This document shows positions 11,587 to 45,303 of a stretch of 48,940 nucleotides of DNA, piece after piece. The position numbers and the translations under genes are program-made. How positions within the stretch are numbered: position 1 is the stretch's first letter; every line of letters begins with the position of its first letter. The stretch comes from a virus. The notes under the pieces are model-generated. The model was not told where the DNA came from. It searched no databases and saw nothing but the letters and a program-made list of their open reading frames with translations. The stretch is taken from positions 1 to 48,940 of IMG/VR virus record IMGVR_UViG_3300009545_000030; one strand, written 5' to 3'.

Positions 11587-11983
11587 TTTCAATCCTCAAG
11601 AAAATTGTTTCATGTTTAGAAATCGCTTCCTTGAGGATTTGATAGAGGATAGAAAATGCAGCTCGGCTCTCTCCAACTGAAGCCAGGCCTTTTGTATTTC
11701 CAACCAGAATGCAGCCTTCTGTATCTTCCGGCTTATTTCCGGAATGAATGCGTACGCCTTCAAAGCCGGGGACATCCAGAATCTGCGGCAGCAGTCGTGC
11801 GAAATGATTGGAATAATTAATCACGACTTCGTACTGACCGGCCGGAATGGCTGTTTTACCTGGAATCTTTGGGCCTGCTCTGACTTCATCTTCCAATGAA
11901 AAACAGAAAAACTTTCCATCAATAAACAATTCGCCAATCGTCGCCCCGTCCTTGCTGGGATTACGTTTGATCAGTAAATCCAT
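11576..11983 (-). CDS. DUF5675-family protein, lysis-associated candidate
   Basis: The 135-aa product contains GELFIDGKFFCFSLEDEVR, KIPGKTAIPAGQYEVVI and GVRIHSGNKPEDTEGCILVG, the conserved blocks of DUF5675. The His and Cys in RIHSGN...EGCILVG resemble the layout of L,D-transpeptidase-like sites, but this is not established for the family. Members are often next to holins, as here, so a cell-wall role is likely by context. No other endolysin candidate is visible in the genome. Confidence 0.78.
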   Translation of the reverse strand: MDLLIKRNPSKDGATIGELFIDGKFFCFSLEDEVRAGPKIPGKTAIPAGQYEVVINYSNHFARLLPQILDVPGFEGVRIHSGNKPEDTEGCILVGNTKGLASVGESRAAFSILYQILKEAISKHETIFLRIENAT

Positions 11984-13914
11984 CAGCCTGTCGCCCCATA
12001 AGCGCCAATTTCGGTAACAGTGAAAAAGGACTCGGTGTTGCGAAGATCAAGGTTGCCACCACTGTCTTGCCAGACCTGCGCTCGAAGTATATCGGCCTTA
12101 TTTAAATAAATGTCGATGGAACCAAAAACACCACCCGGTGACCCTGCAGTTGGCGTGTAGTTGGCAAATTCGCCGGGCGGAGTAACGGCGGCTCCGTTGA
12201 GGATAAATCGCAATCGCCTAGATCCTGTTGCATTGGCGGCAAAATAGGCTTGCGCCTTGAGACATAACAAGCCATGCCGTTGTACGGTGATCAATTCTTG
12301 GTTCGCGGAAGTGCTATGCATGGAGGCAAAATCAGCGTCCTCCACGGTCCATGCAACATCAGTCCATGTGCCAGTAGGAATGGATTGAACGGCGCTACGG
12401 CTTAGGCGTGTATGCGGTGCATTCAGCCCACTAAAGGCGAAATGCGTATGGCCCCTGGAAGTACAATTAATCGCTTCATTGAAATCGCCAGTAACGGAAA
12501 TCTGGTTTCTGAAACCGTCGTACATTGTCGGCACGGTTTGCTCATCGAGCGCCTCGCAACCAATAAATCGAACACCGCGGGGATAGGTGAGCGCGAAAGA
12601 GCCCTGCAGAATAAGAAATCCTGCCGGTTGATTGGCGGTCCAATTGCCGTTATATCCGATAGATTTTGACAGGCAGCCGATGAAAGTTAAATTTTCAATA
12701 TTCGGGTCACCAGCCTCACCAGGACCACTTACAACATGTCCGGCATAGCCGCACTTGTCGGCAATCGTCCCCATCCAACGCCCATCGTTATCAGCAGTAG
12801 ATGCCTTCCAGCCAAAGGAATTACACTGATAAGCGAGGCCGCCATGAAAGGCAAAGCTGGTATTCCCCGCAGACCCTGTACAGTCAATACCCTGATCAAC
12901 ATCGCGAGCGCTAGCCCCATAGACGTTAAACCGTGAGTTTCCGCTGAATACAATACCGCGTGAATATCGGGTTGTTGCGCCTGAACCAAAATTACCACCT
13001 AGCGTTTTTGCTTTAGGATTGTGCACAACGAAATCGGAGCAGGCGTTAAACCATATCCCCTGCACTCGATCGTCGCCAGGATCAGACGCCAGGGAATAAT
13101 TAATATCGTGTGCATAAATATTTCTAGCTGTGAAATTACTGCAGCCGTTGAAAACAATGCCGGAACCAATGTCGTCCCCAGACACCTCGACGCCATCGAA
13201 GAAATGGCCGCTACCGCCCTCAATCCAGATACCGGCATCCAGAGCCAGCTGACCATTCGTCCCGTTGCCGTTGCGGATGACCTTGACGTTACGCAGACTC
13301 AAATTGTTGACACTGCTGCTAGTGAGTGTGCGGACATCCCCCGCCCCACCTGGGGCCAGTTGCTTGAAAATGGCATTTCGAACATCGGCCCCAGAAGGCA
13401 ACGTAATATTACCGGTTACCGCATAAGTGCGATTCTTGCCATCAATGATTAAGCCAGCGGCGAGGGCGCGAGTGATTGGTGTCGTATCATCTGTAGAGCC
13501 ATCGCCAGCTGCACCAAAATCAATTTTTGGGTCAACGACTTGGCCATTAATCCAGGCATCCAATGTCGTACCCACCGCATTCGATGCACTACGAAGGATA
13601 CGGATTTGGCTGGAAAGGCTGTTACTGATGCTGTCTATTGTCCATTTGGATACATTGGACGCATCTTTTAGAATGAATTTATAAGTAACGGCCGAGTCCA
13701 GCCAGATTATTACCGTATTTCCAGAGACTTGCGGCTCACCGCGGGCATTGAGAGAAATGGTTGTGCCGGCTGATGTGCCGATGCCATCGATATACATTGG
13801 GGTTGGGGTTGTAGACCCAACGAGATAAGCCGACAGCGAACCACCCGATAAAGGAACGCCCGCATCAGTAAAGAATTGCACCACGAAAGGTGTCGCGGGA
13901 TAATAAGTTGCCAT
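11983..13914 (-). CDS. Tailspike with beta-helix (643 aa)
   Basis: The N-terminal ~110 residues (MATYYPATPFVVQFFTDAGV ... YLVGSTTPTPMY) form a virion-attachment domain of the kind seen in podoviral spikes. Then IDFGAAGDGSTDDTTPITRAL opens a pectate-lyase-like parallel beta-helix (GIWIEGGSGHFFDGVEV, NGCSNFTARNIYAH). The C terminus (TGSRRLRFILNGAAV) looks like a trimerisation or carbohydrate-binding fold. It occupies the P22 gp9 position after the ejection genes, so it probably binds and cleaves a surface polysaccharide. The active site cannot be assigned by eye. Confidence 0.85.
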   Translation of the reverse strand: MATYYPATPFVVQFFTDAGVPLSGGSLSAYLVGSTTPTPMYIDGIGTSAGTTISLNARGEPQVSGNTVIIWLDSAVTYKFILKDASNVSKWTIDSISNSLSSQIRILRSASNAVGTTLDAWINGQVVDPKIDFGAAGDGSTDDTTPITRALAAGLIIDGKNRTYAVTGNITLPSGADVRNAIFKQLAPGGAGDVRTLTSSSVNNLSLRNVKVIRNGNGTNGQLALDAGIWIEGGSGHFFDGVEVSGDDIGSGIVFNGCSNFTARNIYAHDINYSLASDPGDDRVQGIWFNACSDFVVHNPKAKTLGGNFGSGATTRYSRGIVFSGNSRFNVYGASARDVDQGIDCTGSAGNTSFAFHGGLAYQCNSFGWKASTADNDGRWMGTIADKCGYAGHVVSGPGEAGDPNIENLTFIGCLSKSIGYNGNWTANQPAGFLILQGSFALTYPRGVRFIGCEALDEQTVPTMYDGFRNQISVTGDFNEAINCTSRGHTHFAFSGLNAPHTRLSRSAVQSIPTGTWTDVAWTVEDADFASMHSTSANQELITVQRHGLLCLKAQAYFAANATGSRRLRFILNGAAVTPPGEFANYTPTAGSPGGVFGSIDIYLNKADILRAQVWQDSGGNLDLRNTESFFTVTEIGAYGATG

Positions 13915-19290: not shown

Positions 19291-20496
19291 TTAAATGATT
19301 TCGTAGAGAAACTGGAATAGCATCGCCTTATTCGTGGTATCTGCAGCGATAAATTGCAGCTGCGCCCTATCATTTGTTGTATCGGCAAGAATCGCCGCAC
19401 CTTGGCCAGATACTCCTGTCGCAAAAGCAGTGCCTGCGCAATCCTCGGCAGCCCCAAAGTTTGAGGCAATGGGTAAAGAAATTCCTAATTGTGTGGATAC
19501 AGTCGCTGTCGTTGGATCTATATCCACCTTGCCGCTGACAGAAACCACATTACCAACACGCATGTACTGGCACTGATAGGCTGTCGATGCATCCAGGTTC
19601 GCAACATTGGTTAATATCGGCGTATAGGTGCCAGATAAAATATTCGCGAAGGTGGGGCTTGAGCCGGTTCCCAAATCCTGTGGGCCAGAAAGTGTAATTC
19701 CTCCCGCAGAATTGGTAACGGTTACTCGATTGGCCGTGCCTGTAATTGCCGCGGCGACTGGGGCGGCTCCAGTAGATCCAATGAGTAGCTGTCCATTCGT
19801 AGGCGCCGCCGTGCTCGTTATAGCGCCGCTCGTTCCACTATAGGTAAAGGCATTGGCTGTTAAGCCGGATAACGTTAATCCTGTAAAGGTTGGGCTTGAT
19901 CCAACGGCTATATTCTGGGGCAGCGATAAAGTGATCGATCCGGCACCATTCGCCACGACAACTTGATTTGCTGTCCCCGTTAAGGTCGCTGCAACCGGAT
20001 TTAAACCCGTACTGCCTATTAATATCTGGCCATTCGTCGCTGCGGCCGTGGAGCTGATTAACCCCCCTGTCGTGGCGTATAAAAAGGATTTAGCCGTTAG
20101 TGCGCTGAGCGATATATCTAGAAATGTCGGGCTGGCCGCCGTATTGATGTCTTGCGGCGTTGACAGCGTAATCGTGCCGGCGCCATTAGTGACCGTAATC
20201 TGGTTAACCGTACCGCCGAGATTGCCGAGTGTCGGAGCAAACCCCGTCTTACCAATAAGCAACTGGCCGTTTGTCGGTGCCAGCGTGGAAGTAACGCTGC
20301 CATCTGCCGCCAGATAAACAATCCCGAAAGCCGTTCCGCTATTGGGAATATAACTAAATACCGCGGGGAGGATATTCTCTTCGCCGCCAAAGAGTTTGAC
20401 GATTTGATTCAGCACCTGCATGGCAGGCACTGTTAATTTACCCTCTTTCCCAACCCAGGAGGCTTGTGCCGGAAATGCCTTAAACCGATCAACCAT
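19291..20496 (-). CDS. Repeat-containing tail fibre/needle-position protein (401 aa)
   Basis: ATG 20496 overlaps the gp10-like stop (TGATG). After an N-terminal ~55 residues there are about four repeats of ~55 residues with the pattern TNGQLLIG.TG..P ... VTNGAG.ITLS.PQ ... SPTF ... LTA..F. The C-terminal ~110 residues (GTYTPILTNVANLD, YMRVGNVVSVSGKVDID) form a phage fibre tip domain. In P22 order this is where the tail needle gp26 lies (after gp10, before gp14), so it may plug or extend the tail. Confidence 0.78.
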   Translation of the reverse strand: MVDRFKAFPAQASWVGKEGKLTVPAMQVLNQIVKLFGGEENILPAVFSYIPNSGTAFGIVYLAADGSVTSTLAPTNGQLLIGKTGFAPTLGNLGGTVNQITVTNGAGTITLSTPQDINTAASPTFLDISLSALTAKSFLYATTGGLISSTAAATNGQILIGSTGLNPVAATLTGTANQVVVANGAGSITLSLPQNIAVGSSPTFTGLTLSGLTANAFTYSGTSGAITSTAAPTNGQLLIGSTGAAPVAAAITGTANRVTVTNSAGGITLSGPQDLGTGSSPTFANILSGTYTPILTNVANLDASTAYQCQYMRVGNVVSVSGKVDIDPTTATVSTQLGISLPIASNFGAAEDCAGTAFATGVSGQGAAILADTTNDRAQLQFIAADTTNKAMLFQFLYEII

Positions 20497-21878
20497 CAGG
20501 CTACATCCGCAAAGCAATCCGCCACGGCAAAAGGAATGGGATCAGTCAGATAAAATTCGATCAATCGGGCTCTGGCCGAACCCATATTACGAACGATGAT
20601 CTTGCGCAGATAATCACCTTGCACACCCATATCCAATTGACGTTCGTTGCTCCACGATCTGCCATTATCGTCTGACCAACGAATCACAAGCAGAGGGGCG
20701 GAGCCTTGTCCGGTAGTTAACCCATTACCGGTATCCATAATTAGTTTTAATCGCTTAAAACGAAGGCGCCTATCATCCAATGAAAACACTTTCGATTGCC
20801 GGCGGCGTTTTAAAATAGCTCCGGCATCGTCATAGGCATCGCGGCTCATCTCATACAAATTGCCATTCAGGCCGCCAAAGAAGTGCTTGCCGTAGGCATC
20901 AAGATAGATAGAGGAATGGTGCGTCGAGGATTGCCAATAGGTACGTTTATGCCATGCCTGCATGGCTACATCGTAAACATGCGTGCCGCGATTAGGCACA
21001 GTCAGCACGTAGAATTTATGGCCATGATCTGTGTAGGTGTAGGCATAGGAGGCCTGCAAATCTGCCTGACCGCCATCCTTTAGGTAATTCGAAAGCTCAG
21101 TATTGGTTCCCTCATCGCTGATAATAACCGGGGTATATCCTTGCATCCGATAGACGAGCAAATCATTGCCTAAAAAGAATAGAGTGTTGTCGTCCTTAGC
21201 CACTGAGAATCGAGCATACAGCCCACGCTCAATTTGTGCCGATCCATTGCGCTCGAAGGGGAAATCAGCATTGCCAGAATCAAACCATACCTCAATCGTT
21301 TTTTCGCCAAAGCAGAAAACCTCTCCATGATCTTCGCGAACGGCTAAGGTGTCATCCGGCGCCTTCTCGTTTGTCACAAAGTCTAAAGCATCATACTGAG
21401 TGCCATCGCCCAGCTGAGAAATAAACCATTGCCCATTACTGGTTGAGAACAAGAAATAGCCGTCTAATTCATCAACAGTATCCGCGCCAGGAAAATCCGG
21501 ATCTGTAATAATATTCAGCGTGCCAGTGGAGATATCATAAACATAACCAGTATTTCCAGTGCCTGTTACGATAACAAGCTGGTTGCCATTGTTGGCCATG
21601 GAAACCCGATCGGTGCCGTCCACAGTTCCTATAGCGGTAAGCACATAAGAGTTATTGAAGGTATACAGTGTAGTGCCGAAGACAATATAGGGCACATTAT
21701 TCATCAAGTCGCCGCCGCGGCAAAACCCTGAAACAGAAGCTCGCTCAATACTTCCGGGAGCGCCGACTAAAGCCAGGGGATTTCGCTTTCCAGGCACAAC
21801 ATAGCAATTTTCGGTAATTTCATTGCTGATAACGACGGAAAGGGCTTTAGCCTGGGGACCGATGATATCCAGTTTCAA
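20496..21878 (-). CDS. P22 gp10-like packaged-DNA stabilisation protein (460 aa)
   Basis: The product has the beta-propeller-like sequence of P22 gp10: NCYVVPGKRNPLALVG, GGDLMNNVPYIVFGTTLYTF, VDELDGYFLFSTSNGQWF, GEVFCFGEKTIEVWFDSG, FPFERNGSAQIERGL. In P22, gp10 forms a hub below gp4 that closes the portal and holds packaged DNA. It begins in ATGA overlap with the gp4-like gene, the same order as P22. Length is close to P22 gp10 (472 aa). Confidence 0.9.
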   Translation of the reverse strand: MKLDIIGPQAKALSVVISNEITENCYVVPGKRNPLALVGAPGSIERASVSGFCRGGDLMNNVPYIVFGTTLYTFNNSYVLTAIGTVDGTDRVSMANNGNQLVIVTGTGNTGYVYDISTGTLNIITDPDFPGADTVDELDGYFLFSTSNGQWFISQLGDGTQYDALDFVTNEKAPDDTLAVREDHGEVFCFGEKTIEVWFDSGNADFPFERNGSAQIERGLYARFSVAKDDNTLFFLGNDLLVYRMQGYTPVIISDEGTNTELSNYLKDGGQADLQASYAYTYTDHGHKFYVLTVPNRGTHVYDVAMQAWHKRTYWQSSTHHSSIYLDAYGKHFFGGLNGNLYEMSRDAYDDAGAILKRRRQSKVFSLDDRRLRFKRLKLIMDTGNGLTTGQGSAPLLVIRWSDDNGRSWSNERQLDMGVQGDYLRKIIVRNMGSARARLIEFYLTDPIPFAVADCFADVA

Positions 21879-27628: not shown

Positions 27629-27721
27629 TTAACAATTCTTTCCACCCTTTTTGGGCTTTCCTTTACCGACTTTCGGCATTTCGCTGGGCTTCATCATGGG
27701 TTTTGGGGCTGGCTTTTTCAT
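27629..27721 (-). CDS. 30-aa strongly basic protein
   Basis: ATG 27721 overlaps the portal stop (ATGA). The 30-residue product is almost all Lys, Pro, Met and Gly: MKKPAPKPMMKPSEMPKVGK then GKPKKGGKNC. The ATGA junction and non-random basic composition support expression. It might bind DNA or acidic scaffold during packaging, which is speculation. About 80 non-coding bases follow it. Confidence 0.6.
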   Translation of the reverse strand: MKKPAPKPMMKPSEMPKVGKGKPKKGGKNC

Positions 27722-29787
27722 TCTGCGGGCTCCTGTTGTTGGGCTTGTGCAGCAGCTTTATCTGCTAATTCTTTTTCATGATCCATTTGAGCCATGGCGC
27801 GCTCATGCTCCATGTCGGCCACTACGCCTTGATGCAGGCTATCAACGTGCGCCACAATGGCGTTTGTTTGCGCGCCTAACGTCGTTGCATTCGCATCTGC
27901 CGCGGCTTTCTCGGCCTGAGCAAACTTAAGCACGGCGTCGTATTCAGCCATTTTTTGCTTCAGCTCAAACTCGCGCTCTTTGAGATCAAGCTCACGCTCT
28001 TTGTTCTGCACGTCGGCCATTTTCATCTCGGCATCATGCAGAAGTTTCTGAGCCTCAGGATTACCGTTCGGGTCCTGCTCTGGCAGGATTTCAGCGATTT
28101 GTTTCTCAGTGACATGCAACGATTCGAGGGCATACGTAAGAATCGGCTTAGAATTCACGCCGGGCAATCCAATCATTGCCTGCATAGCCTGTATCTTGGC
28201 CATCCTCTGCATATCAGACGACATATTCGGATCGGCCACCGGGAGAATATCGCAGTCCTTGCCATTGAAATCTTCCCGGAATACACGGGCATCCTCATCC
28301 AAGACTTTGAAATATTCCTCCTCGTCCATGTATTTATAATTCAGCTTGTAGAGAATCTGAAACTCACTGGCCATCGACCGATAAATGCGTTTATAGATTG
28401 CATTGAAGGTCTTCATGCCCTGTTCAATCAGAGCAACCACGGTTGTAGCGGGTGTGTTCATCCCAGGAGCATCACCAGCCAGTACATCCTTCACACTGGC
28501 GAGGTCTTTGGCCATCTCGATGACCATGCCGAGCAGCTGGAATAGTGTGGCGCTGGGCTCTTTTGCTGGGTTTGGATAAATACCCTTGCTTAAATTCTCT
28601 GCCGTAGCCTCAGTCTTCTTCCACTCATTTGGCGAGAAGCGATATACCCCTGATTTAACCTTGATCTCCTTGGAGAGGAAGCCACCGCCGACAATGGACA
28701 TGGTGCCGGCATCAAGTAGCTGGTTAAATAGAGTATTCGCCGTCTCATTAAGGGGAGCCAGCAATAATCCAAAGCCGGTTGCGTAGAAGCCTCCATCAAA
28801 GCTCGGAATAAACGGGTAGCTGGCGAAATACTGGCAAGGCTCAATATTCTGAATCTCGCCCTTCTGATTCTCGGTAATGTCCTCGGCTTCGTAATTAGCG
28901 ACAATCCGCATCACTGTGCGCGAGGATTTCTCAACCGTGACAATGTAGGGCTCTTCGTACCCATCATCATCCAGGTCGCGCCAGCAATGCTGCTCCAGAA
29001 ACGTATAGTACTTTTCGGTCTCCGGTTCCGTGGATACCTGATCGGGGCTTATCTGATTGAGATTAACATCTCGCCATACGCCGGAACGTTGATTGCTGAT
29101 AACTGTATTCTTATGCGTGTTTTCGAGGATATCGGTAATGCGTCTAGCCGATTCAATGCTCGAAGCCGTATTGTTGATACAGACTTTATCCGGCATGCGC
29201 ATTTCGGACTTATTGCGCTTCAGTCTGGGATCGTAATAGACCTTGCGGAATAGGTGTCCGACGACCGGCAGGACATGCAGGAGCTTATCGGTATCACCCT
29301 CCCACTCCTTCATGCGCTTTAACAGCTGCCAGCTCATATAGGAGCCGACACGTTTTGCCTTCAGTTCCTTCTGCCCATCAGGATCGGGTCCAATAATCTC
29401 GCCCTTAACGACTTTATCGTCCTTGATGATCTCTGAATAAGCACGGGCAGCAAACTTAATCGAAGCATCAGCAATCAATGGCAGCTTGATATTCGCTGCG
29501 CCCGGCCAAGGAAAGGTTTTCTCCTCCCTCAGCTGGTTGGCTAACTTAATCGCGTCCTTATGCTTTGCCAGCCATTCCTTGCGTGATTCCTCGTCAATCT
29601 CATAATCATCGACAACCTCATTGCCAAGCTTTTTGAGCTTGTCCTCTTCCATGTTATCGGCAAGATTGGTCTCTCCAGCCATCTTGAGCAGTTTGGCTTT
29701 TGCTGCGCCATAGGTAGGCTGTTGATCGCCGATGTATTGCAGGTCCGCTGTGGGCCCCTGCGGGGGCATTACTGCTGCTTCAGGCAT
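27718..29787 (-). CDS. Portal protein, P22 type (689 aa)
   Basis: The start is ATG 29787 (MPEAAVMPPQG), overlapping the terminase stop by 1 bp; TTG 29790 is an alternative. The core carries portal-typical stretches (EEKTFPWPGAANIKLPLIAD, LLHVLPVVGHLFRKVYYDPR, PFIPSFDGGFYATGFG, NTPATTVVALIEQGMKTF). The last ~120 residues form a long charged coiled coil ending in Gln/Ala, consistent with the portal barrel of P22 gp1 (725 aa). It forms the dodecameric packaging and ejection channel. Confidence 0.93.
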   Translation of the reverse strand: MPEAAVMPPQGPTADLQYIGDQQPTYGAAKAKLLKMAGETNLADNMEEDKLKKLGNEVVDDYEIDEESRKEWLAKHKDAIKLANQLREEKTFPWPGAANIKLPLIADASIKFAARAYSEIIKDDKVVKGEIIGPDPDGQKELKAKRVGSYMSWQLLKRMKEWEGDTDKLLHVLPVVGHLFRKVYYDPRLKRNKSEMRMPDKVCINNTASSIESARRITDILENTHKNTVISNQRSGVWRDVNLNQISPDQVSTEPETEKYYTFLEQHCWRDLDDDGYEEPYIVTVEKSSRTVMRIVANYEAEDITENQKGEIQNIEPCQYFASYPFIPSFDGGFYATGFGLLLAPLNETANTLFNQLLDAGTMSIVGGGFLSKEIKVKSGVYRFSPNEWKKTEATAENLSKGIYPNPAKEPSATLFQLLGMVIEMAKDLASVKDVLAGDAPGMNTPATTVVALIEQGMKTFNAIYKRIYRSMASEFQILYKLNYKYMDEEEYFKVLDEDARVFREDFNGKDCDILPVADPNMSSDMQRMAKIQAMQAMIGLPGVNSKPILTYALESLHVTEKQIAEILPEQDPNGNPEAQKLLHDAEMKMADVQNKERELDLKEREFELKQKMAEYDAVLKFAQAEKAAADANATTLGAQTNAIVAHVDSLHQGVVADMEHERAMAQMDHEKELADKAAAQAQQQEPAE

Positions 29788-31268
29788 CAATACCCACCTA
29801 TTCCACTCCTGCCCGCATCGTTAGCCAAAGGGTCATCAAATTCGATATCGCCTGAATATTCGACGTGATAAGCGAAGGTTAGGGCCAGGGCATCTGCCAA
29901 GTCAGGCGATGACAATCCACGCTTTTTCATATCAGCTTTCTTTTCCAGCAAAATAGCGTCCCGGCCATCCTTGATTGCATAACCGTATTCAACGCCTGTT
30001 AGATCGGCGGTAAGCTCAGGATCATTCGGAATAGCTCCGCCCTTGAGCCATGTGCGCATAAAGCCCCACATCTCAGCCCGTTTATTGGCGTAGGCAACAT
30101 CGTCATGGCCTGGCATTGAGCGATCAGGCTTTGCACCGAACTGAACCTCAATTACGGGAACGCCCAGCTGATTAAGCCGATCAACAACACCGCCACCAAC
30201 GCCAGTTCCATCCACAAAGACCGCTTCGACATGGTAATACTTCCTTGCCTCGACAATTTTTGATGCCAAGGTCATTGTATCGACATTGCGTAATTTGATG
30301 GGGGGAATGGTCTTCGCATCTCTACCGCGGCGAAACCATAAAACCGATTGATCATCACCGAAACGTGCGACATCCACACCCATTACCATGGGGTCAAAGT
30401 CTTGGCGTTTTATTTCTCGGTGGGCCGCCTCTTCAACCAGATCACCGGAGATAAATTGCATTGATCCGGCACGCGGAAATACGCCTCTGACGCGAACCCT
30501 GACAAAATCAGAATCCTCACCGTAATCCTGCACCCACTGGGCAATCTGTTCTTTATTGGTCAGGGTGACAGTGCGGGAATCAATTTGCTTATTGGTCCAG
30601 CGGTGTTTAAACCGTCCGAAACATTCTCTAAACCTTCCCGTATTCCGTGTAGGGTTGCCGAATGCACACCAGATGATTTGGGTGTTTTCATCGGTCAATG
30701 CTCCTTCAGTGACCTCCCAGATGATATCGGGAATCGCTGAGGCTTCGTCCATGATAATGACAATCCGCTTGCCCTGATTATGGAGACCTGCAAAGGCTTC
30801 GGTATTGCGTTCTGACCAGGGGATCATATCGATCCGCCAGGTCTTTTCATGTGCCGGATCTTTCGAGTACAACGCTGTGGCTGTCAGTTCAAACCAATGC
30901 TTACAAATACAGAGCCGATGCCATTTGGCCAATTCAGCCCATGTTTTGGTTTTAAGCTGTGTCTCGGTGTTGGCTGTTACTACACCCTTCGTATCTTCGA
31001 AGGTTGAGACAGACCAGAGGATAATCCATGAGACCAGGGCCGATTTACCGATACCATGACCACTGGCCACCGCTTCCTGTATCGCCTGACTTACCGGCAA
31101 TCCATTTTTAATATCCGTGAGGATTTGGATTTGCCAATCTTCAGGATGCTTATCCTTTAATTCGCCGGAGCCCCATGGGAATGCGAATAGGACAAAGCGA
31201 AGAGGATCGTAGGTACAGCGTGCTATCTCATCAACCAGATCTAACTCAATATCGCTAGCTGACTGCAT
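29787..31268 (-). CDS. terL: Terminase large subunit (493 aa)
   Basis: The ATPase domain has Walker A GHGIGKSA near residues 70-77 and Walker B VIIMDEAS at 170-176. The nuclease domain starts with D299 in MGVDVARFGDD, followed by VEAVFVDGTGVGGG and a C-terminal SSPDLADALALTFA with another acid. The protein translocates DNA into the prohead and cuts it. Gene order terS-terL-portal matches P22, a headful packager, consistent with a circular assembly. Length is normal. Confidence 0.96.
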   Translation of the reverse strand: MQSASDIELDLVDEIARCTYDPLRFVLFAFPWGSGELKDKHPEDWQIQILTDIKNGLPVSQAIQEAVASGHGIGKSALVSWIILWSVSTFEDTKGVVTANTETQLKTKTWAELAKWHRLCICKHWFELTATALYSKDPAHEKTWRIDMIPWSERNTEAFAGLHNQGKRIVIIMDEASAIPDIIWEVTEGALTDENTQIIWCAFGNPTRNTGRFRECFGRFKHRWTNKQIDSRTVTLTNKEQIAQWVQDYGEDSDFVRVRVRGVFPRAGSMQFISGDLVEEAAHREIKRQDFDPMVMGVDVARFGDDQSVLWFRRGRDAKTIPPIKLRNVDTMTLASKIVEARKYYHVEAVFVDGTGVGGGVVDRLNQLGVPVIEVQFGAKPDRSMPGHDDVAYANKRAEMWGFMRTWLKGGAIPNDPELTADLTGVEYGYAIKDGRDAILLEKKADMKKRGLSSPDLADALALTFAYHVEYSGDIEFDDPLANDAGRSGIGGY

Positions 31269-31536
31269 TCTCTATCCGCTTGCGTGCAGCCTCAATGAGA
31301 ACCGCAAGATTCCCAACGATATTGATATCAGCATCAATCCCCTGAGTGGCCTTGCCGTCTAATCGATCCCCAAGCTCTTTAATCGCATTGAGATCGCCTT
31401 CCATTGCGAGGCTAATCAGCTTATCAGCGATCTTCCTAAGATCATCAGCATCACGTTGTGCAATGGCGCGATTGAGGGCATTAATCCATGGCTTATTCTT
31501 GGTAGCATTCTTATTACCAATAGGTGCGCCAGCCAT
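31255..31536 (-). CDS. Terminase small subunit-like protein (93 aa)
   Basis: The product starts MAGAPIGNKNATKNKPWINA and has ALNRAIAQRDADDLRKIADK and GDLNAIKELGDRLDGKATQG. This short helical type commonly precedes terL in proteobacterial phages and is usually annotated as a small terminase subunit. It overlaps terL by 14 bp. It is shorter than P22 gp3 (162 aa), so pac recognition is inferred, not shown. Confidence 0.75.
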   Translation of the reverse strand: MAGAPIGNKNATKNKPWINALNRAIAQRDADDLRKIADKLISLAMEGDLNAIKELGDRLDGKATQGIDADINIVGNLAVLIEAARKRIENAVS

Positions 31537-31596: not shown

Positions 31597-33174
31597 TTAA
31601 CGAACAACCGACCGAACTACATCCCTACAGATATTGCCTGTGGGGTCATGAATAAAAGAACTGCCTGCAGCGGGTGCGGCGGTTGTCAGAATATCGACTT
31701 TGCTGCTACGTACTGGTGAGCTATCTGCATCATCAATAGCCGCATAAATATCATAAGCGGTTGAGGCGGTGAGCCCTGAAATAACAATGAGGGTTGCATC
31801 ACCCATGTTTCCAGTTTGTGAGGCACTGGCAAATATCGGGGGACCGCCGCCTGAAGCCTGCCCTGCCAATATCTCAGTAGCTGTAGGGGCTGTATCGCCA
31901 TTGCCTACAACAACCAGCCGATAGGTAATAGGTTCTCCGCCGGCTGGATAGAACCGAATGACGGCAGTTGTAGAGCCTATTGAGATGGCTTCGGGCTGAA
32001 TACTGAATGCAAGTAAGGTTGGTAGATCAAACGTCGTATTAAGCAAACGAAGGCGTGTAAAGCCACCATTCCCCGCCGTTGGGCAAAGGATCGACCCCTC
32101 GCCGAATTCATTCCATGCCTCAATCATAAAGGTCGATTGAGTTTGGGTAGCGTTGGCATCCAATAGTGTTTTAGCTGTGGTTAAATGATTGCCCCACTCA
32201 GTACTGGTGGGCATGCCATGGAGCAGTGTTGATGGCGTCCAAGGCGTTGGATCAAAGCCTGCCGTAAGCGGGGGCCAGAAAACATCAATATCTGGATCGC
32301 CCATCCAGCCATTGCAGAAGCCGCGGTATATAGCACTGCCGGTTCCTACTTCGCCTGAAAATACGGCGTTATCGAGATCTGCATAGGTTGTGGGCGACGG
32401 GCCTGCAGCGTTATTGCCTGTTCCCAGAGAGTTTTGGCGTGTCGTTGTATAAATGTTTGAACCTGTTACGCCATCCCACCCGTGGGCGGGGTCACTGACA
32501 TCTATCCACGCACTAGAAGAATCGGCCTGTCCATCCATCCAATAAATGCCACCTTGGCCCTGTCCTGCAACATACGCATCGGCCGCATCAAGGAAAGTCT
32601 TTACCGCAGCATGGCTTGCATAACGATCTCTGAGGCTTGGACCCGAATTGACAATAACAACCTTCTTGCCGCCAACCGTTAGATAATTCGAATCGCCAAA
32701 ATAATTCGCGCTCCAATACTCATACAGCGAATGATCAGTCGATGAACTCAGTCCGCCTGCATTCGTCTGATTGGCGAATTGAATACAGAATTTAGGTTTT
32801 GAAACTGCCGATGTCTTATATAGCTCGATAAAATGGTTGAGGTACGGTTGTAATGTCGAGCCAGACCATTGCATGAACCAATCGATTGCAACGAAAGTGA
32901 CGCCGTATTGCTTCATCCATGAAAGCTGGGTATCACAAACGGTTTGTTGCGTTTCGTCGTATGCCCCGAGCGATAAAGGGATGCGATCATTGGGTATTAC
33001 CGACCATGGATCGGAGGCATAAGGGCCACCACCTGGCGTTGACCAGCCGGGGAAATAGTAAACGCCGCACTGATAAGTAGTAGCTGGCGTCCCGGAAGCA
33101 AAGCCGGCAGTAACGAGATCGCCTATTGTTGATCCAGGCCCGATCCCTCGGGTTACCAGATTGGCAACGGTCAT
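31597..33174 (-). CDS. GH99/WbsX-like domain fibre or depolymerase (525 aa)
   Basis: The central region has GVYYFPGWSTPGGG, QLSWMKQYGVTFVAIDWFMQ, KPKFCIQFANQT, KKVVIVNSGPSL and FMIEAWNEFGEGS, the pattern of GH99-like (WbsX) TIM-barrel proteins acting on polysaccharides. The EAWNEFGEG motif carries candidate acid residues. A fibronectin-like C-terminal domain follows (SIGSTTAVIRFYPAGGEPIT ... ASTAYDIYAAIDDADSS). It is last of four tail-surface genes upstream of terminase, and a host-glycan hydrolase is likely. Confidence 0.78.
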   Translation of the reverse strand: MTVANLVTRGIGPGSTIGDLVTAGFASGTPATTYQCGVYYFPGWSTPGGGPYASDPWSVIPNDRIPLSLGAYDETQQTVCDTQLSWMKQYGVTFVAIDWFMQWSGSTLQPYLNHFIELYKTSAVSKPKFCIQFANQTNAGGLSSSTDHSLYEYWSANYFGDSNYLTVGGKKVVIVNSGPSLRDRYASHAAVKTFLDAADAYVAGQGQGGIYWMDGQADSSSAWIDVSDPAHGWDGVTGSNIYTTTRQNSLGTGNNAAGPSPTTYADLDNAVFSGEVGTGSAIYRGFCNGWMGDPDIDVFWPPLTAGFDPTPWTPSTLLHGMPTSTEWGNHLTTAKTLLDANATQTQSTFMIEAWNEFGEGSILCPTAGNGGFTRLRLLNTTFDLPTLLAFSIQPEAISIGSTTAVIRFYPAGGEPITYRLVVVGNGDTAPTATEILAGQASGGGPPIFASASQTGNMGDATLIVISGLTASTAYDIYAAIDDADSSPVRSSKVDILTTAAPAAGSSFIHDPTGNICRDVVRSVVR

Positions 33175-34967
33175 TAACTGGCTCTCGTTCTGCTAGTCGG
33201 CGCCGAGGAGCTATCGAGAGTGTACGTAGCCGCAGTAGTACTGCCATCGAGCTTTTTAACAGTCAATATTGTGCCGGAGACAGAAACCTCACCGACACTC
33301 TGCATGGTGAGCATTAATGCCTGAGCAATCGTTGGTGCGGAACCATCGGCCGGATAACTCTCGACCATAGCATTGGCGGTAATATCACCGCGGATATCGA
33401 TACCGCCGGTGCCAGCAACTGCTTTAATGCCATCGCTGGTGCCAGCCGTTCCACCTGTTGCGACAAGGCCATGCTTGCTGGTGCCGTTGGCTGTCAATAC
33501 GAGGCCATGGCCAGCAGTCGCAATTGCTTGAATGGCATCGCCCACCGTTGTAGTAACCGTGATGCCGGCACCTGCGGTGGCGCCCCCTACGACGGCCAGA
33601 CCTGCTGTTCCGGTAGCACCTGCAGCAGCACGAATGCCAATACCAGAAGCTCCGCCAGCCGCACTGAGACCGCTTCCGCTACCAGCGGCAGTGAGCGCCA
33701 GAGCGGAACCGTTAGTGGCGGCCGACGTAATGTTCATGCCCTGGCCGGTTGCACCAGAGCCAGAGGTGAATTGCGCACCGTTGCCCGTACCACCACCGAC
33801 CGCATTGATGCCGTGAGAGGTAGTTGCGCCACCAGCCGCATTGATACCGTGTTTCGTTGTGCCGCCGCCAGCCGTGTTAATCCCATGACCCGAGGTTGCA
33901 GAAATCAGAATGCCATCGCCACTTGTAGACCCACCGGTGGCCGAGATACCCGCACTGGTTGTGGCTCCCCCAACAGCGTTAATGCCGTGCTTGGTCGTCC
34001 CGCCACCAGCTGCAGTGATGCCGTGACCACTGGTTGCTGAGGTGATGATTGCATCACCACTTGTTGATCCGCCCGTGGCTTTGATGCCGTTACCCGTTGC
34101 TCCACCAACAGCTTTAATACCAGCGCCCGTGCCATTGCCCGTGACCGAGATGCCATCACCGTTAGTTGTTCCATTGGTGATTGTTACGCCTGCACTCAAT
34201 ACCGCATTGGTCGCAACATTGATGCCCGTGACGTTAACATTGGGTACCAAAGTTGTAGAAGCTGGAGAGCCACCATAAACGACGTAGGTGATAGTACCGG
34301 TAGGAGTTGTGGTCCACGTATCGACAGTTACGGTATCGGTAGAACCGACATTAGCGGTGATTACGCGCGACTGACCAACGCCCGTGGTTCCACCTGTAAT
34401 AATAACTGTGGCGCCAATCAACTCACTGTCAGCAAAAGCCGCGGCAGAGCGAAGCACCAATGTTGTACCGGTGGCGGATTGGGCTGTGCCGTTGTCAACA
34501 ATACCGAGTGCAGGAATAGCGCCAGCCGGTAAATTCACATTCGCGAAATCAAGGCCCGCTTCGCCTGTGGTCGTAATATCCAGCGTTCTGCCAGCGGTAG
34601 TGGGCATAACAGCGCCCATAGCAGCAACGCTGTAATCGGAAACAAATTTAGCCGAGGCATTGCCGTAGGTGTAAATCCGGATAACTTGGTCTTCAATCGC
34701 TTTGGTTGCTGAATCCACAATTTGCACAACGACTTCGGCTGCCGATAATTCCGTAGCGGTCAGAGTGATTGACCAGAGCGCAGAACCTGTACCGCCTACG
34801 GCAGCAGGGTTGTTCGTTGTGTTCGCGACGTTGCCGCCATCTTTCGAAACCTTTGTATCTCCCGTTGCTGGCGTCCAATCGGCAGAGACAGCCAAGTCTA
34901 CTACCGCACGCTTGACCACGGGAAAAGTAAATGTGGTCTGCGTATTATATTTGGCTAAGAGATACAT
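33174..34967 (-). CDS. Repeat-rich fibre protein (597 aa)
   Basis: Residues 1-110 form a conserved fibre N-terminal domain (MYLLAKYNTQTTFTFPVVKR, VVDLAVSADWTPATGDTKVS). Residues ~120-240 contain RTLDITTTGEAGLDFANVN and AGAIPALGIVDNGTAQ. From ~260 to ~530 there are over fifteen short Gly/Ala/Thr/His repeats of ~13 residues of the type GGGTTKHGINAVG, including a ~44-residue higher-order duplication (SATSGHGITAAGGG / SATSGHGINTAGGG). These look like a glycine-rich solenoid shaft. Confidence 0.75.
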   Translation of the reverse strand: MYLLAKYNTQTTFTFPVVKRAVVDLAVSADWTPATGDTKVSKDGGNVANTTNNPAAVGGTGSALWSITLTATELSAAEVVVQIVDSATKAIEDQVIRIYTYGNASAKFVSDYSVAAMGAVMPTTAGRTLDITTTGEAGLDFANVNLPAGAIPALGIVDNGTAQSATGTTLVLRSAAAFADSELIGATVIITGGTTGVGQSRVITANVGSTDTVTVDTWTTTPTGTITYVVYGGSPASTTLVPNVNVTGINVATNAVLSAGVTITNGTTNGDGISVTGNGTGAGIKAVGGATGNGIKATGGSTSGDAIITSATSGHGITAAGGGTTKHGINAVGGATTSAGISATGGSTSGDGILISATSGHGINTAGGGTTKHGINAAGGATTSHGINAVGGGTGNGAQFTSGSGATGQGMNITSAATNGSALALTAAGSGSGLSAAGGASGIGIRAAAGATGTAGLAVVGGATAGAGITVTTTVGDAIQAIATAGHGLVLTANGTSKHGLVATGGTAGTSDGIKAVAGTGGIDIRGDITANAMVESYPADGSAPTIAQALMLTMQSVGEVSVSGTILTVKKLDGSTTAATYTLDSSSAPTSRTRAS

Positions 34968-34976
34968 AATTCATCC

Positions 34977-35672
34977 TCAATACTGACCACGAAATTCTCC
35001 GCGGGTATTGCGTTCAAGCTGTGAAATAATTATTCCGGCGGCGCCTACGGTGGGATTATCAGCAGAATCGCTATTTACGGTTCCGGTTATGCTGAGCGTC
35101 TTCCCACTGACTGTATCGACAAGACTTGTATCGGTAAGCGGCCAATAAGCCGTAAGAGTGCCCGATGAAATTGTTGATGGGGTTGCGCCTGCAATCAGGG
35201 AGGTGCGGTCACCACTACTGAGCGCGCTCGACCACATCGCGACATGCGCAATCTTTCCATCAATATCGGATATAGCACCTTGGCGCGAATCACCGCCGAT
35301 ACAGAAATTTGGCGAACTTTCCGCATTAAAAGTCCCAGCGAAGCCACCGGTCACGGACTCGCCAAGAGCATAAATATTTACATTCCCTGACCCGTCATAA
35401 ATCATAATTACGGGATACCATGTGGCTGTCGATGGCGATCCCGTGGTTGACGCATTGCCACCAGAGGCTTGCTGCATTTCTGTATAAAATTTTGTACTTT
35501 GCAGCTCAAGATCTATGTAAGATCCAGAGACATTGTTGTAGGCCAGCATTTTCGTGCCAGCTATGGAAGTGAATTTTATCCAAGCCAAAAGAGTGAGTGG
35601 GCGCGCAGTAATCCCCATTGAGCCCGTATAGGTAAGGCGCTGGCCTGTTGTGTTTGTAAATACACGGCTCAT
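34977..35672 (-). CDS. LamG/concanavalin-like adhesin (231 aa)
   Basis: The product has the jelly-roll pattern of LamG-like domains: MSRVFTNTTGQRLTYTGSMG, PLTLLAWIKFTSIAGTKMLA, YPVIMIYDGSGNVNIYALGE, GKIAHVAMWSSALSSGDRTS, and LTAYWPLTDTSLVDTVSGKT. Such domains bind sugars or surface proteins. It lies between two fibre genes and overlaps the upstream stop, so it is probably a receptor-binding module of the virion. Confidence 0.8.
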   Translation of the reverse strand: MSRVFTNTTGQRLTYTGSMGITARPLTLLAWIKFTSIAGTKMLAYNNVSGSYIDLELQSTKFYTEMQQASGGNASTTGSPSTATWYPVIMIYDGSGNVNIYALGESVTGGFAGTFNAESSPNFCIGGDSRQGAISDIDGKIAHVAMWSSALSSGDRTSLIAGATPSTISSGTLTAYWPLTDTSLVDTVSGKTLSITGTVNSDSADNPTVGAAGIIISQLERNTRGEFRGQY

Positions 35673-37240
35673 TGGTCACTAATCTCCGCACCACGTGTAT
35701 ACGGATAAGTGGCCAAGTACGCCACCTGGAGAGCCCAGGCGGTATCTATATAAGCGCTGGAGCCTTGTAGCTCTGCATTTGTATTAGAGCTGGATTTGCC
35801 GCCATCGCTGAAAGCCGGTGAGGCAGAGGAGCGTATAATTGTGGAATCGCAAGCATACGTTCCAGTCGCCGTAGAAAATGAATTGACTGCAACCTGTCCA
35901 TAAAAAGAGCAGCGCGAAATATAGGTATTACCTTGTGTGCCAGATGCGCCTGCTGCAGCTAAATCTAATGCCTTCCCGCCCAAAGCGTCCCCGCCAGCAC
36001 AATGCACATATTCTATTTCGCCAGTTGTTCCACCATTTTGATTCTGTGCCCCGACAGCAAAACCATTCTGTGATTTGCAATAACGCACGGTAATTTGTTG
36101 GCAGGAATCCTTAAGATATAGCTCTTCAGCCGCATTAGAATTAATCATGCGGCAACCCTCAAAAAGGGCATATTTCAACCCATAAGCCGAAACAATGCCG
36201 TAGCTGTTCGAGCTTGACGGACGGCCATCCTCAAGGATATTTCGGAAAAATACATAATGGTTATAAGTGCCATCTGAGCTGGAGGCGTCATTCGAAAAGA
36301 AAAACGGCGTGGCATTATCTGTGCCTGCCGTGCCAACACCTATATTTGTATAACTGAGATTGCATGCAGTTATGCGATCTTGGCCATCTGGAATCATGAA
36401 ATACTGCATGTCAGCTTTACCGGCTGTTACACCAGTAAAAGTAAGTTCATTAATAAAACCATCCGCAATATTTCCACCGGAGATGGATACAAAATTCCCG
36501 GCAGCAAAATCTATCGTTGCGCTGCCGGCTACAGCCCCCGAGGTTGGCAACGAATACATCACCACAGGGCATTTGGTGTTATTCAGCATGACATTGCCAT
36601 TTGACTGATTAGTATGCCCTGTGAGCGTATAAGTGCCGCTCTCCTTAAATATTACATGGCCGATTATTGTCGTTACAGTTGATGCGCTACCGAATGCTTT
36701 GCGCAAATCCGTTTTATAGGGATTTGAATAGCTGCCAGTGCCTGTAGAATCATTTCCAGAGGTTGCCGCAAACCACATGAATTTAGTGGTGTCGTCTTTA
36801 TCAACCACCGATATGGATACTGTAGTTGATACAGAATTAGAGTCCTGATCGGTAATAGTGGCGGTGATTGTATAAGTCCCGATTGCGGGCGCATCACACA
36901 TAACCATGCCATAATTTTGCAATGTATTGGCATACCAATCACGCGGCATATCTTGGCCGATTGAAATGCCCGGCATGTCGCTGGATATTGTGTATCGGAA
37001 TGGTGGTCTGCCGCCCATAACGCCGATTGGGAAGCGCATTGGCACACCAGCAGGCTGCAGCTTATGCCGAGCAAAAGCCCCAGCAACCGCCTCACTATCG
37101 GGACGAGGATAAATGAGACGCAGCGTTAAGTTTGCAGCCGGCATTGCGCGGCCGGCAGGCAAAGGGAATGTGTAAACGTTGCCGCCACCACCACCAGCCG
37201 AATAAGACGGCCTAAAAATGGGGGGCTGGCGCTGGATCAT
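35669..37240 (-). CDS. Ig-like plus beta-helix tail protein (~523 aa)
   Basis: ATG 37240 is used; GTG 37246 would add two residues. Near residues 70-150 there is a cadherin/Ig-like putative domain (GGRPPFRYTISSDMPGISIG, GTYTITATITDQDSNSVSTT). The rest forms a right-handed beta-helix (FMWFAATSGNDSTGTGSYSN, ITACNLSYTNIGVGTAG, LFEGCRMINSNAAEELYLKD). It is the second gene after the late promoter. Probably a spike or fibre. No catalytic residues assigned. Confidence 0.75.
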   Translation of the reverse strand: MIQRQPPIFRPSYSAGGGGGNVYTFPLPAGRAMPAANLTLRLIYPRPDSEAVAGAFARHKLQPAGVPMRFPIGVMGGRPPFRYTISSDMPGISIGQDMPRDWYANTLQNYGMVMCDAPAIGTYTITATITDQDSNSVSTTVSISVVDKDDTTKFMWFAATSGNDSTGTGSYSNPYKTDLRKAFGSASTVTTIIGHVIFKESGTYTLTGHTNQSNGNVMLNNTKCPVVMYSLPTSGAVAGSATIDFAAGNFVSISGGNIADGFINELTFTGVTAGKADMQYFMIPDGQDRITACNLSYTNIGVGTAGTDNATPFFFSNDASSSDGTYNHYVFFRNILEDGRPSSSNSYGIVSAYGLKYALFEGCRMINSNAAEELYLKDSCQQITVRYCKSQNGFAVGAQNQNGGTTGEIEYVHCAGGDALGGKALDLAAAGASGTQGNTYISRCSFYGQVAVNSFSTATGTYACDSTIIRSSASPAFSDGGKSSSNTNAELQGSSAYIDTAWALQVAYLATYPYTRGAEISDQ

Positions 37241-37245
37241 GCCCA

Positions 37246-37665
37246 CTATTTAATTTTCGCCTCGATCAATTCTTTAAGGCTGTCGAATCGTTCGAGCTGT
37301 ATTTCCTTATCCTCTCTGCGCTGCTCAGAGATACGATTCATTGCGCCAGTCAATTGCTTACTGGCTTCAATGGCATTCTTTTCTACGTTGTCATGCAGGC
37401 TTTCGACGTTAGCTTTGATGGCGCCTAAACTGGCTTCCAGTTTTTCAACATTGCTGATTCGCCCCTCGAGCCGATTCAAAATAGGCATGACTCGGGTATT
37501 TTCAAACTCCTGCAACCCAGCTTCGACAATTTGCCCGGTCTCAATCTCATTCAGCTTTCGCAGTCGTTTGTAGAGAAAATGGATAATCCCGCCCAATATC
37601 GTCGCAATCCCAGAGAGCGCCCAGCCGATCACCCCAGATGCGTCTGGATCGAGTGGGCTAGCCAA
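37246..37665 (-). CDS. Membrane-anchored coiled-coil protein, holin position (139 aa)
   Basis: TTG 37665 is chosen because AAGGA lies 7 nt upstream, just after a terminator U tract; an in-frame start 66 bp upstream would run through both arms of that terminator. A transmembrane helix at residues ~11-28 (VIGWALSGIATILGGIIHFLY) is followed by a basic stretch (KRLRKLNE) and a long coiled coil to the end. It is the first gene of the late transcript, where lambdoid phages place lysis genes. It could be a holin-like or anchor protein. Confidence 0.62.
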   Translation of the reverse strand: MASPLDPDASGVIGWALSGIATILGGIIHFLYKRLRKLNEIETGQIVEAGLQEFENTRVMPILNRLEGRISNVEKLEASLGAIKANVESLHDNVEKNAIEASKQLTGAMNRISEQRREDKEIQLERFDSLKELIEAKIK

Positions 37666-37677
37666 TGCTTTATCCTT

Positions 37678-37701
37678 AAAAAAATCCCCGCCGGAGCGGG
37701 G
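37678..37701 (-). terminator. Intrinsic terminator 2 in the late leader
   Basis: On the minus strand CCCCGC pairs with GCGGGG around TCCG (stem 37686-37701) and is followed by A then seven T (37684-37678). It stops leftward transcripts about 100 bp after the late promoter and just before the first late gene. Confidence 0.85.
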
Positions 37702-37732
37702 TAATGGACTACGAGCGAGAAATCGGGGCAAT

Positions 37733-37760
37733 AAAAAAGCCCCGCTGCTTAGGCGAGGCT
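37733..37760 (-). terminator. Intrinsic terminator 1 in the late leader (tR'-like)
   Basis: On the minus strand AGCCTCGC pairs with GCGGGGCT (one T-G pair) around a 7-nt loop (37738-37760) and is followed by six T (37738-37733). It lies ~40 bp after the predicted late start point, as lambda tR' does after pR'. Confidence 0.85.
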
Positions 37761-37804
37761 TAATGAATTCACTTTTTTGAGAGCGAGCGGCGCCCTCGTG
37801 TTAA

Positions 37805-37833
37805 AGATTATTGCCTTCACGCGGCACTGTCAA
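37805..37833 (-). promoter_or_regulatory. Late promoter, pR'-like
   Basis: On the minus strand TTGACA (37833-37828), 17-bp spacer, TAATCT (37810-37805). The -35 is a perfect sigma-70 box inside the last codons of the Q-like gene. Two intrinsic terminators follow. This is the layout of a lambdoid late promoter whose transcript is released by Q-modified polymerase. Confidence 0.8.
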
Positions 37834-38152
37834 TACTTTCAACATACCGATTCATAAAGGCTTTTTGGGCGAACTCCAAGCTGTCTGGCCGGTAGAATTT
37901 ATGGTTGCGATAGGTGTCGATCAGAACGACATAGGCATAGGTTTCTTCGCGTTTTAACCCAGCCAGAGCCTGATCGACAGCCAGCATGGTCTGGTCATCG
38001 GCCATCGCATACTCGGCATGTTTGCCAATTTCCGGGTATTCATCCCTTACTTCGCTTTGCCATCGTGATTTTGACGCATCCAGCCGACCTAATGGATTGG
38101 CTGACCATAAAACCCACTGCTCTAACAGCCGATCTACATCGCGCAACTCCAT
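37817..38152 (-). CDS. Q-like antitermination protein (111 aa)
   Basis: The product begins MELRDVDRLLEQWVLWSANP and is rich in charged helices, with a LDASKSRW segment and an alpha-helical C terminus. Size, the start resembling IEQVLERWGAW of the small phage antitermination Q family, and its position after ninG and before a promoter with two terminators all point to a Q-type antiterminator. Sequence similarity alone is modest. The TAATG overlap with the HTH gene couples them. Confidence 0.68.
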   Translation of the reverse strand: MELRDVDRLLEQWVLWSANPLGRLDASKSRWQSEVRDEYPEIGKHAEYAMADDQTMLAVDQALAGLKREETYAYVVLIDTYRNHKFYRPDSLEFAQKAFMNRYVESIDSAA

Positions 38153-43820: not shown

Positions 43821-44075
43821 TCAATACCAGGGGCGCGGTTCGCCGGGCTTTCCATTCAACTCGGGAAACTTGGCCTGCAGTTTTTTCGTCGTTTCGGGAT
43901 CGCAACAATCCAGCAGTTCAGTGAAATCCCGATGCACCCTTAACTCCTCGATCAGGCGAGCCTTATAGGCTTGGTAGCGCCTTTCCTCAGCATCTGAAAC
44001 TCCTAATATTTCGCCGCCTTGCATAATGACTTTATTAACGAATGAGCCTTTCTCAAACCACTCACGCCAGCTCAT
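43821..44075 (-). CDS. Hypothetical protein (84 aa)
   Basis: The product MSWREWFEKGSFVNKVIMQG is helical, with RYQAYKARLIEELRVHRDFT in the centre. ATGA overlap with the previous gene. No recognised motif or membrane helix. Function unknown. Confidence 0.65.
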   Translation of the reverse strand: MSWREWFEKGSFVNKVIMQGGEILGVSDAEERRYQAYKARLIEELRVHRDFTELLDCCDPETTKKLQAKFPELNGKPGEPRPWY

Positions 44076-44293
44076 AACCCACCTCGCACAACATCGCGCG
44101 CCAACTCAAGTTGCGAACTATCGATTTTCCGAAAGCCCGCATCTACGGCACCATTTTTCCAGCCATGCTGAAAACTGTATGGGGCAGTAAACGGACATGT
44201 TTCGCCTCGGAAGCCAGCGAAATAGCCGGCCAGCAATTGATCGTTATCTAATGCCTCTAAAGCTGGCTTGCGTCGAATTGGAATTATGTTCAT
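44072..44293 (-). CDS. Hypothetical protein (73 aa)
   Basis: The product MNIIPIRRKPALEALDNDQL contains AGYFAGFRGETCPF and YSFQHGWKNGAVDAGFRKID, a pattern of small phage proteins from early operons (FxxGxxNGxxDxG). ATGA overlaps on both sides. Function unknown. Confidence 0.72.
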   Translation of the reverse strand: MNIIPIRRKPALEALDNDQLLAGYFAGFRGETCPFTAPYSFQHGWKNGAVDAGFRKIDSSQLELARDVVRGGL

Positions 44294-44535
44294 AACCCAC
44301 CCCGAACGTTTGCCCGATGAATCGCATCCGAAACCCTTTCCTGATGCTCTGCGGCCTCTACAAGACGTTTGCAGGGCGCACAGTGGTGTTGCTTGGCTTT
44401 GATTTCTTTTGCGAGGAGAGGATTGCCGCAGCGGAGGCAGTCAACCAATGGAATGGTGTCCCACATCATTGATGTGCTGGAGCTATAAGTGATTGGCACA
44501 AATTTCAGGATTGAACATTTTTCGTATTGCTTCAT
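44290..44535 (-). CDS. Zinc-ribbon-like protein (81 aa)
   Basis: The product has VDCLRCGNPLLAKEIKAKQH and HCAPCKRLVEAAEHQERVSD, giving CxxC...CxxC spacing of a zinc ribbon followed by a helix. The start MKQYEKCSILKF follows the GAGGCGAGC ribosome region. Function unknown; possibly nucleic-acid binding. Confidence 0.68.
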   Translation of the reverse strand: MKQYEKCSILKFVPITYSSSTSMMWDTIPLVDCLRCGNPLLAKEIKAKQHHCAPCKRLVEAAEHQERVSDAIHRANVRGGL

Positions 44536-44822
44536 AACTGCTCGCCTCGGTAATTAAGTGCCGCCGTTCCCTGGCTTTATCCTTACTTTGAATTCTTGCC
44601 CTGCCGTGTCAGCGGCTATCCCATCTGCTTGCGACTTTTGAGATCATTGCGGAGCCACAATGCACACTTTGTGAGTCATCTGCTTTGTATGAGCAGCAAC
44701 GGGGCAGCCCTTCACGCGGTCCTGCGCATATACGGATAAGATCACCGTCCTATCATCGGATCAGGCCCTGACAGGCCGAATTCATAACCCACTTCTCCTT
44801 CCCTTCAGTTGTGATTGGAGTG
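44536..44822 (-). other. 287-bp gap with a possible decayed gene
   Basis: No clear gene is seen. On the minus strand a GTG at 44745 opens 33 codons (VILSVYAQDRVKGCPVAAHT...) ending at TGA 44644-44646; the same frame continues for 29 more codons after the TGA (SQKSQADGIAADTAGQEFKV...) to a TAA. The ribosome site is poor. It may be a decayed gene. Confidence 0.35.
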
Positions 44823-45295: not shown

Positions 45296-45303
45296 ATTTC
45301 ACC

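Follow-up and report, generated by a model that had tools for sequence, protein, structure and literature searches.

A coupled four-gene block before the terminase genes of a lambdoid-type podovirus as a candidate second adsorption device with a tagged lectin

Do four coupled genes lying ahead of the terminase genes give a phage that also encodes a tail spike a second means of adsorption? The record in question, hereafter the window, comprises an entire IMG/VR virus contig (48,940 bases), and its gene content identifies the phage as a temperate podovirus of the lambdoid type, because an integrase, RecT and NinG are encoded.

Layout of the block and its surroundings

Four minus-strand ORFs, designated A, B, C and D, are situated between a Q-like antiterminator and terS, and all of them are translationally coupled. 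The start of A sits on the stop of the 37246-37731 gene (TAGTG), the overlaps are ATGA for A/B and TAATG for C/D, and gaps of 9 nt and 60 nt follow B and D, respectively. The block is followed by the terS candidate and then by terL, a P22-like portal gene and a gp10-like head closure gene.

37817..38152, minus strand: Q-like antiterminator, upstream of the block (phrog_79, E=1.4e-6)
37686..37761, minus strand: two terminator-like hairpins downstream of Q, a possible Q-antiterminated leader; the number of such sites is not above shuffled expectation
37246..37731, minus strand: 161-aa protein with a membrane segment and a coiled-coil-like part, coupled to A; it probably starts further downstream; 97% identical in the nearest relative, L002
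35669..37246, minus strand: A, 525 aa; short N-terminal tag, Gly linker and Ig-like/beta-helix-like body (ORF, Pfam, PHROG)
34977..35672, minus strand: B, 231 aa; LamG/ConA-like lectin (Pfam Laminin_G_3, E=2.5e-14)
33174..34967, minus strand: C, 597 aa; fibre-like protein (ORF; model of the N-terminal part)
31597..33174, minus strand: D, 525 aa; predicted GH99-fold enzyme followed by an FN3-like C-terminal region of low confidence (Pfam, model, Foldseek, profile)
31255..31536, minus strand: terS candidate, from its position before terL and a weak DUF5681 match (E=0.0032)
29787..31268, minus strand: terL (phrog_5902, 6.6e-78; phrog_2 terminase large subunit, 2.8e-43)
27718..29790, minus strand: P22-like portal (PF16510, 3.4e-6; phrog_1216, 4.1e-22)
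20496..21878, minus strand: head closure, gp10-like (phrog_578, 2.4e-104)
11983..13914, minus strand: separate tail spike in the usual P22-type place (PHROG virion protein, 4.4e-17; pectate-lyase-like Pfam match; sub-threshold End_N_terminal)

The coordinates, overlaps and gaps agree with the original prediction of a coupled, overlapping block of four genes before terS. The separate spike-like protein at 11983-13914 likewise bears out the claim that the block is additional to the spike at the usual P22 site, so that one phage would carry more than one receptor-binding protein gene; the phage of L054 also keeps a spike-like gene. The late promoter placed upstream of the block gained indirect support from the Q-like gene and the two hairpins, whereas promoter and terminator scans of the locus gave no excess over chance.

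Other genes of the late region were recorded as well. Genes for a GTA-type 3TM holin and a DUF5675 protein (11173-11592 and 11576-11983, minus strand) occupy the far end of the late operon, unlike the lysis-type genes of L054 and L057, which stand directly before A. The repeat-containing product of 19291-20517 (minus strand) has a PHROG tail-fibre match (3.6e-8) and is a possible third fibre-like product. A beta-helix-like protein encoded right after the major capsid gene (23157-24128, minus strand; 99% identity in L002, dN 0.007) has no family match and may be a head decoration.

Predicted folds and functions of the four proteins

The following parts of the four proteins are referred to below.

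37181..37246, minus strand: N-terminal tag of A, (V/M)GMIQRQPPIFRPSYSAGGGGG, conserved between this protein and those of L054 and L057, the bodies of which differ
34980..35024, minus strand: C-terminal type I tag of B, SQLERNTRGEFRGQY, from the sequence of the end of B
34653..34967, minus strand: type I N-terminal Ig-like domain of C, residues 1-105 (pLDDT about 92)
34263..34475, minus strand: second beta domain of C, residues 165-235, common to type II C proteins such as that of L054
33333..34220, minus strand: Gly/Thr/Ala-rich repeat shaft of C (repeat pattern; low-confidence model)
32095..32112, minus strand: catalytic motif NEFGEG of D (E356, E359), invariant in 29 sequences and aligned with GH99 NEWHEG

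When the window was compared with L002, dN/dS was 0.036 for A, 0.041 for D (0.02 in its catalytic part) and 0.08 for C after the N-domain, where dS was high; the reference values were 0.019 for TerL, 0.04 for the portal and 0.115 for the capsid. A-D are thus real genes under purifying selection. Hydropathy revealed no signal peptide and no strongly hydrophobic N-terminal stretch in A-D, and therefore Sec export is unlikely.

The Ig/beta-helix label given earlier to A could be traced solely to a sub-threshold Ig match in Pfam (E=0.0087), a weak PHROG tail-protein match (E=0.014) and the sequence pattern, and we keep it as provisional. Its N-terminal tag was not found outside the group formed by the window, L054 and L057. 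Neither A nor B had sequence relatives in the PDB. The LamG label of B was upheld, with 54.1 bits against the Laminin_G_3 cut-off of 27.6. The protein ends in LERNTRGEFRGQY, and its tag, SQLERNTRGEFRGQY, is the sole ORF end of such kind within the window.

C had been described as a Gly-rich solenoid fibre. Its Gly content (25%) and its 12- and 46-residue periodicity are in accordance with this description, and the solenoid shape of the shaft stays provisional at the low confidence of the model. The fold predicted for the N-domain is Ig-like, as in fibre adaptors of the BppU/p132 type, with weak scores: the best PDB fold matches were the T5 tail tip and the JBD30 and DT57C baseplates (E 0.0009-0.003, low TM), and the BFVD matches included a pectate-lyase protein. 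Ig folds are common. From its length and the entry we infer that chain L of 7qg9 (140 residues) is T5 p132. In phage T5 the Ig-like collar protein p132, which resembles BppU, anchors the L-shaped fibres (PMC10038345). The N-domain of C resembles p132 and the N-domain of TP901-1 BppU as a potential Ig-like fibre anchor, and the tail structures of T5 and DT57C are among its closest solved folds. However, C fuses the Ig-like domain to a repeat shaft and does so in a podovirus, and no sequence match to BppU/p132 was found in Pfam, PHROG or PDB, the fold match (E 9e-4) being weak.

The GH99/WbsX label of D was corroborated. D matched the Pfam profile Glyco_tran_WbsX (PF14307) with E=2.3e-11 and 44.2 bits (curated cut-off 25.1). 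For the AF2 model of residues 30-385, GH99 mannosidases were among the top Foldseek matches (E about 1e-8), and TM to the GH99 (beta/alpha)8 fold was 0.53-0.67 by target length; one GH71 enzyme ranked top by E-value but superposed more poorly than GH99. A profile built from D and its bacterial relatives also recovered GH99 chains (E 1e-8), with both catalytic glutamates in register. D thus has in common with GH99 endo-alpha-mannosidases/mannanases (BtGH99, BxGH99, MANEA) and with Pfam WbsX the predicted fold and the catalytic Glu pair, whereas its identity to them in structural alignments is 10-15%, it has no signal peptide, and it carries a phage N-terminal segment and the FN3-like C-terminal region. 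Two bacterial relatives of D adjoin flippase, polymerase/ligase, UDP-sugar dehydrogenase and glycosyltransferase genes, that is, clusters of the exopolysaccharide type, and start with signal-peptide-like sequences, which makes a surface polysaccharide the likely substrate. The GH99-type enzyme is therefore predicted to be a likely phage polysaccharide depolymerase; a search of open-licence full texts for phage plus GH99 returned no paper.

The C-terminal tag of B and the N-domain type of C

Neither the tag of B nor its relation to the N-domain of C figured in the first reading; both are new here. Searches with the two families of C N-domains, between which we detected no sequence relation, gathered 109 loci. 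Type I C domains, to which that of the window belongs, were preceded by proteins ending in RG-repeat tags, and type II domains by proteins with GGM/HPGM tags. Simple tag patterns occurred in 17/25 upstream proteins of type I and 39/64 of type II, compared with 8/688 and 3/688 other ORFs. As these regular expressions had been picked after the data were viewed, we added a test free of them, in which the last 18 residues of 90 upstream proteins were compared and the nearest neighbour was restricted to non-homologous bodies. The type of C was predicted with a balanced accuracy of 0.884 (88%, p=0.0005), as against 0.38-0.47 for four control segments. When the last 5 residues were dropped and the identity of the C N-domains was held below 50%, the accuracy was still 71% (0.71, p=0.002; control 30%). 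The Mantel correlation between tag and C N-domain was 0.33 overall, with controls about 0; within type I it was 0.43, though one control reached 0.31, and within type II it was about 0. The strong signal is thus that between types.

The tagged bodies fall into 27 clusters, one of which bears either tag according to C (L153/L159 versus L180/L231), and the tag codons are synonymously diverse. In the eight records scanned, the tag was found where C is encoded, in one of them (L165) two genes ahead of C, and the few other ORFs that fitted loose patterns did not resemble it. In L165 (5-1162 and 1162-4191) a 1009-aa ORF separates the RG-tagged protein from C, which provides a natural case on adjacency.

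Conserved short peptides on swapped bodies are known from branched receptor-binding complexes. In K1-5, SP6, G7C and Klebsiella phages, N-terminal hepta- and undecapeptides dock spikes on gp10-like adaptors (PMC6872550). The likeness of our block to these complexes (K1-5/SP6 gp37 adaptor, G7C gp66/gp63.1, Klebsiella KP32/KP34) lies in the several receptor-binding proteins or depolymerases, which in our case are predicted to share one virion, in the swapped modules and in a short conserved peptide, which in our block is a putative docking peptide, on members other than the anchor. However, the known peptides are situated at the N-terminus and bind domains of the T4 gp10 type (PMC6872550), whereas the tag described here is C-terminal, is carried by the gene before the fibre and has an Ig-like candidate dock. 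No T4 gp10-like docking domain was matched in A-D by Pfam or PHROGs. The comparison suggests that the block may work in the manner of a branched receptor-binding complex and be, in this functional sense, a variant of it. A literature search for C-terminal docking tags found none.

These data suggest that the tag of B may serve as a C-terminal docking peptide, and we tentatively propose that it docks onto C or onto the same site as C. Somewhat more speculative is the extension that unrelated tailed-phage lineages use interchangeable C-terminal address tags of at least two types, RG-repeat and GGM/HPGM, which would mount lectins, beta-helices and Ig proteins on the cognate N-terminal adaptor of the next fibre like a plug-and-socket code. 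It is rather unlikely, in our view, that the tags are instead passengers, that is, a sequence conserved at a recombination boundary or a translational coupling signal upstream of C that has no part in docking. The tag adjoins C and moved together with it, so that co-transfer could give covariation in the absence of contact; the last 5 codons of many type II tags hold the Shine-Dalgarno sequence and overlap the start codon of C, and the type II tag does not track N-domain distance. However, type I tags stand 0-58 nt from C, some loci have the ribosome site beyond the stop, the codons vary synonymously, the signal persists when the last 5 residues are removed at N-domain identities below 50%, and the tag of L165 is two genes away. 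Were the tag a docking peptide, it would provide a sequence rule by which receptor-binding proteins, most of them lacking annotation, could be found in uncultured phages of different morphotypes, and it would explain how very different adhesins are swapped while the virion is unchanged.

Exchange of the block and its probable place in the virion

No match to A-D was found in INPHARED (50,697 phage records); the type I N-domain of C also had none there, and the type II domain matched two uncultured phages only. The order A, B, C, D recurs in L054 and L057, where lysis genes precede it and the terminase comes after it; the terminases of both differ from that of the window. The TerL relatives L003-L047, in turn, mostly have the terminase alone in common with the window, and among the TerL relatives examined a similar cassette before terS was present in none except L001/L002. 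Aligned with L002, the window shows 97% identity where A ends but about 37% within B; the value is low for the N-domain of C and climbs in D. The synonymous difference was 0.81 in the C N-domain and 0.65 in the rest of C, compared with 0.37 in A and D and 0.41 in TerL. B is replaced by a different protein in L002, yet the tag type is kept. The simplest explanation is therefore that B and C were transferred together as one block. This swap, together with the A-B-C-D order found under other terminases, bears out the suggestion of an exchangeable cassette. In Alteromonas phages, a host-recognition module of a fibre and its neighbour gene is common to unrelated phages (PMC10579305). The transfer of a fibre plus neighbour gene between distant phages is the shared trait, but the partner is a chaperone/cap in those modules (PMC10579305) and a tagged lectin in the window.

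The gp10-like gene (20496-21878, minus strand) is another likely recombination point: its pS against L002 was 0.74, near saturation, whereas that of portal and capsid was 0.34-0.40.

That the block is structural and receptor-binding, as originally predicted, obtained indirect support from homologues in tail loci and from the lack of signal peptides. The D homologue of L142 belongs to a podovirus tail locus, after genes matching portal, major head protein and tail protein PHROGs, and its N-terminus, SAIDDTQPPTG..PASSA.LR.NF.AAK.EI..LQ, recurs as the beginning of the 561-aa spike-like protein encoded next. A shared N-terminal anchor is the usual way in which spikes attach. Since D of L142 has its anchor in common with the adjacent spike, D is probably a virion enzyme; a search for this anchor in phages gave one marginal match. 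In L060 a B-C pair is downstream of a J-like tail-tip gene (phrog_5616, 1.5e-54), in L252 B-C pairs are flanked by portal and capsid genes, and in L058 B-C follows the portal. When 132 genes next to C were scanned against PHROGs, the terminase, portal, neck and tail matches were scattered, with no single context.

We consider a virion adsorption role of A-D likely, and it is reasonably probable that they form a second, multi-part adsorption device. As regards virion location, tag-to-C binding, substrate and order of events, the arrangement is one that we infer: C would be the fibre, docked to the virion by its Ig-like N-domain with the repeat region as shaft, and B the lectin, clipped by its LER..RG..RG peptide to the N-domain of C or to the same virion site. 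D, the polysaccharide-cleaving GH99-type enzyme, and A, the beta-helix adhesin, would each be attached via a short N-terminal segment of their own, and the P22-type spike and tail would act after the four proteins had jointly bound and cut a surface polysaccharide of the host.

Should the proteins be attached to the capsid as head decorations rather than tail parts, the positions of B-C in L252 and L058 would fit, and Ig and LamG domains are frequent in such decorations; the tail loci of L142 and L060 and the anchor shared by D and the spike in L142 argue against this, and we regard it as unlikely. Quite improbable is that A-D are non-virion morons, either soluble enzymes and lectins freed at lysis or surface proteins of lysogenic conversion. 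The position before terS is unusual, morons occur close to it in lambdoid phages, and a GT2 glycosyltransferase is also encoded, but the missing signal peptides, the coupling to the late operon and the homologues in tail loci speak against this reading. As for D, the Pfam name Glyco_tran_WbsX would make it a glycosyltransferase, which is very improbable given its GH99 hydrolase fold and catalytic pair, the best fold matches to glycoside hydrolases instead of sugar-nucleotide-dependent transferases and the signal-peptide-like starts of its bacterial relatives.

At 43821-45549, early ORF triplets appeared duplicated by length; they proved to be similar in length but not duplicated. The GT2 gene (9303-10247, plus strand; Pfam 6.7e-30) is near the integrase gene, and its product may modify the O-antigen or exopolysaccharide of the lysogen; such a modification would be the counterpart to a virion enzyme that cleaves polysaccharide.
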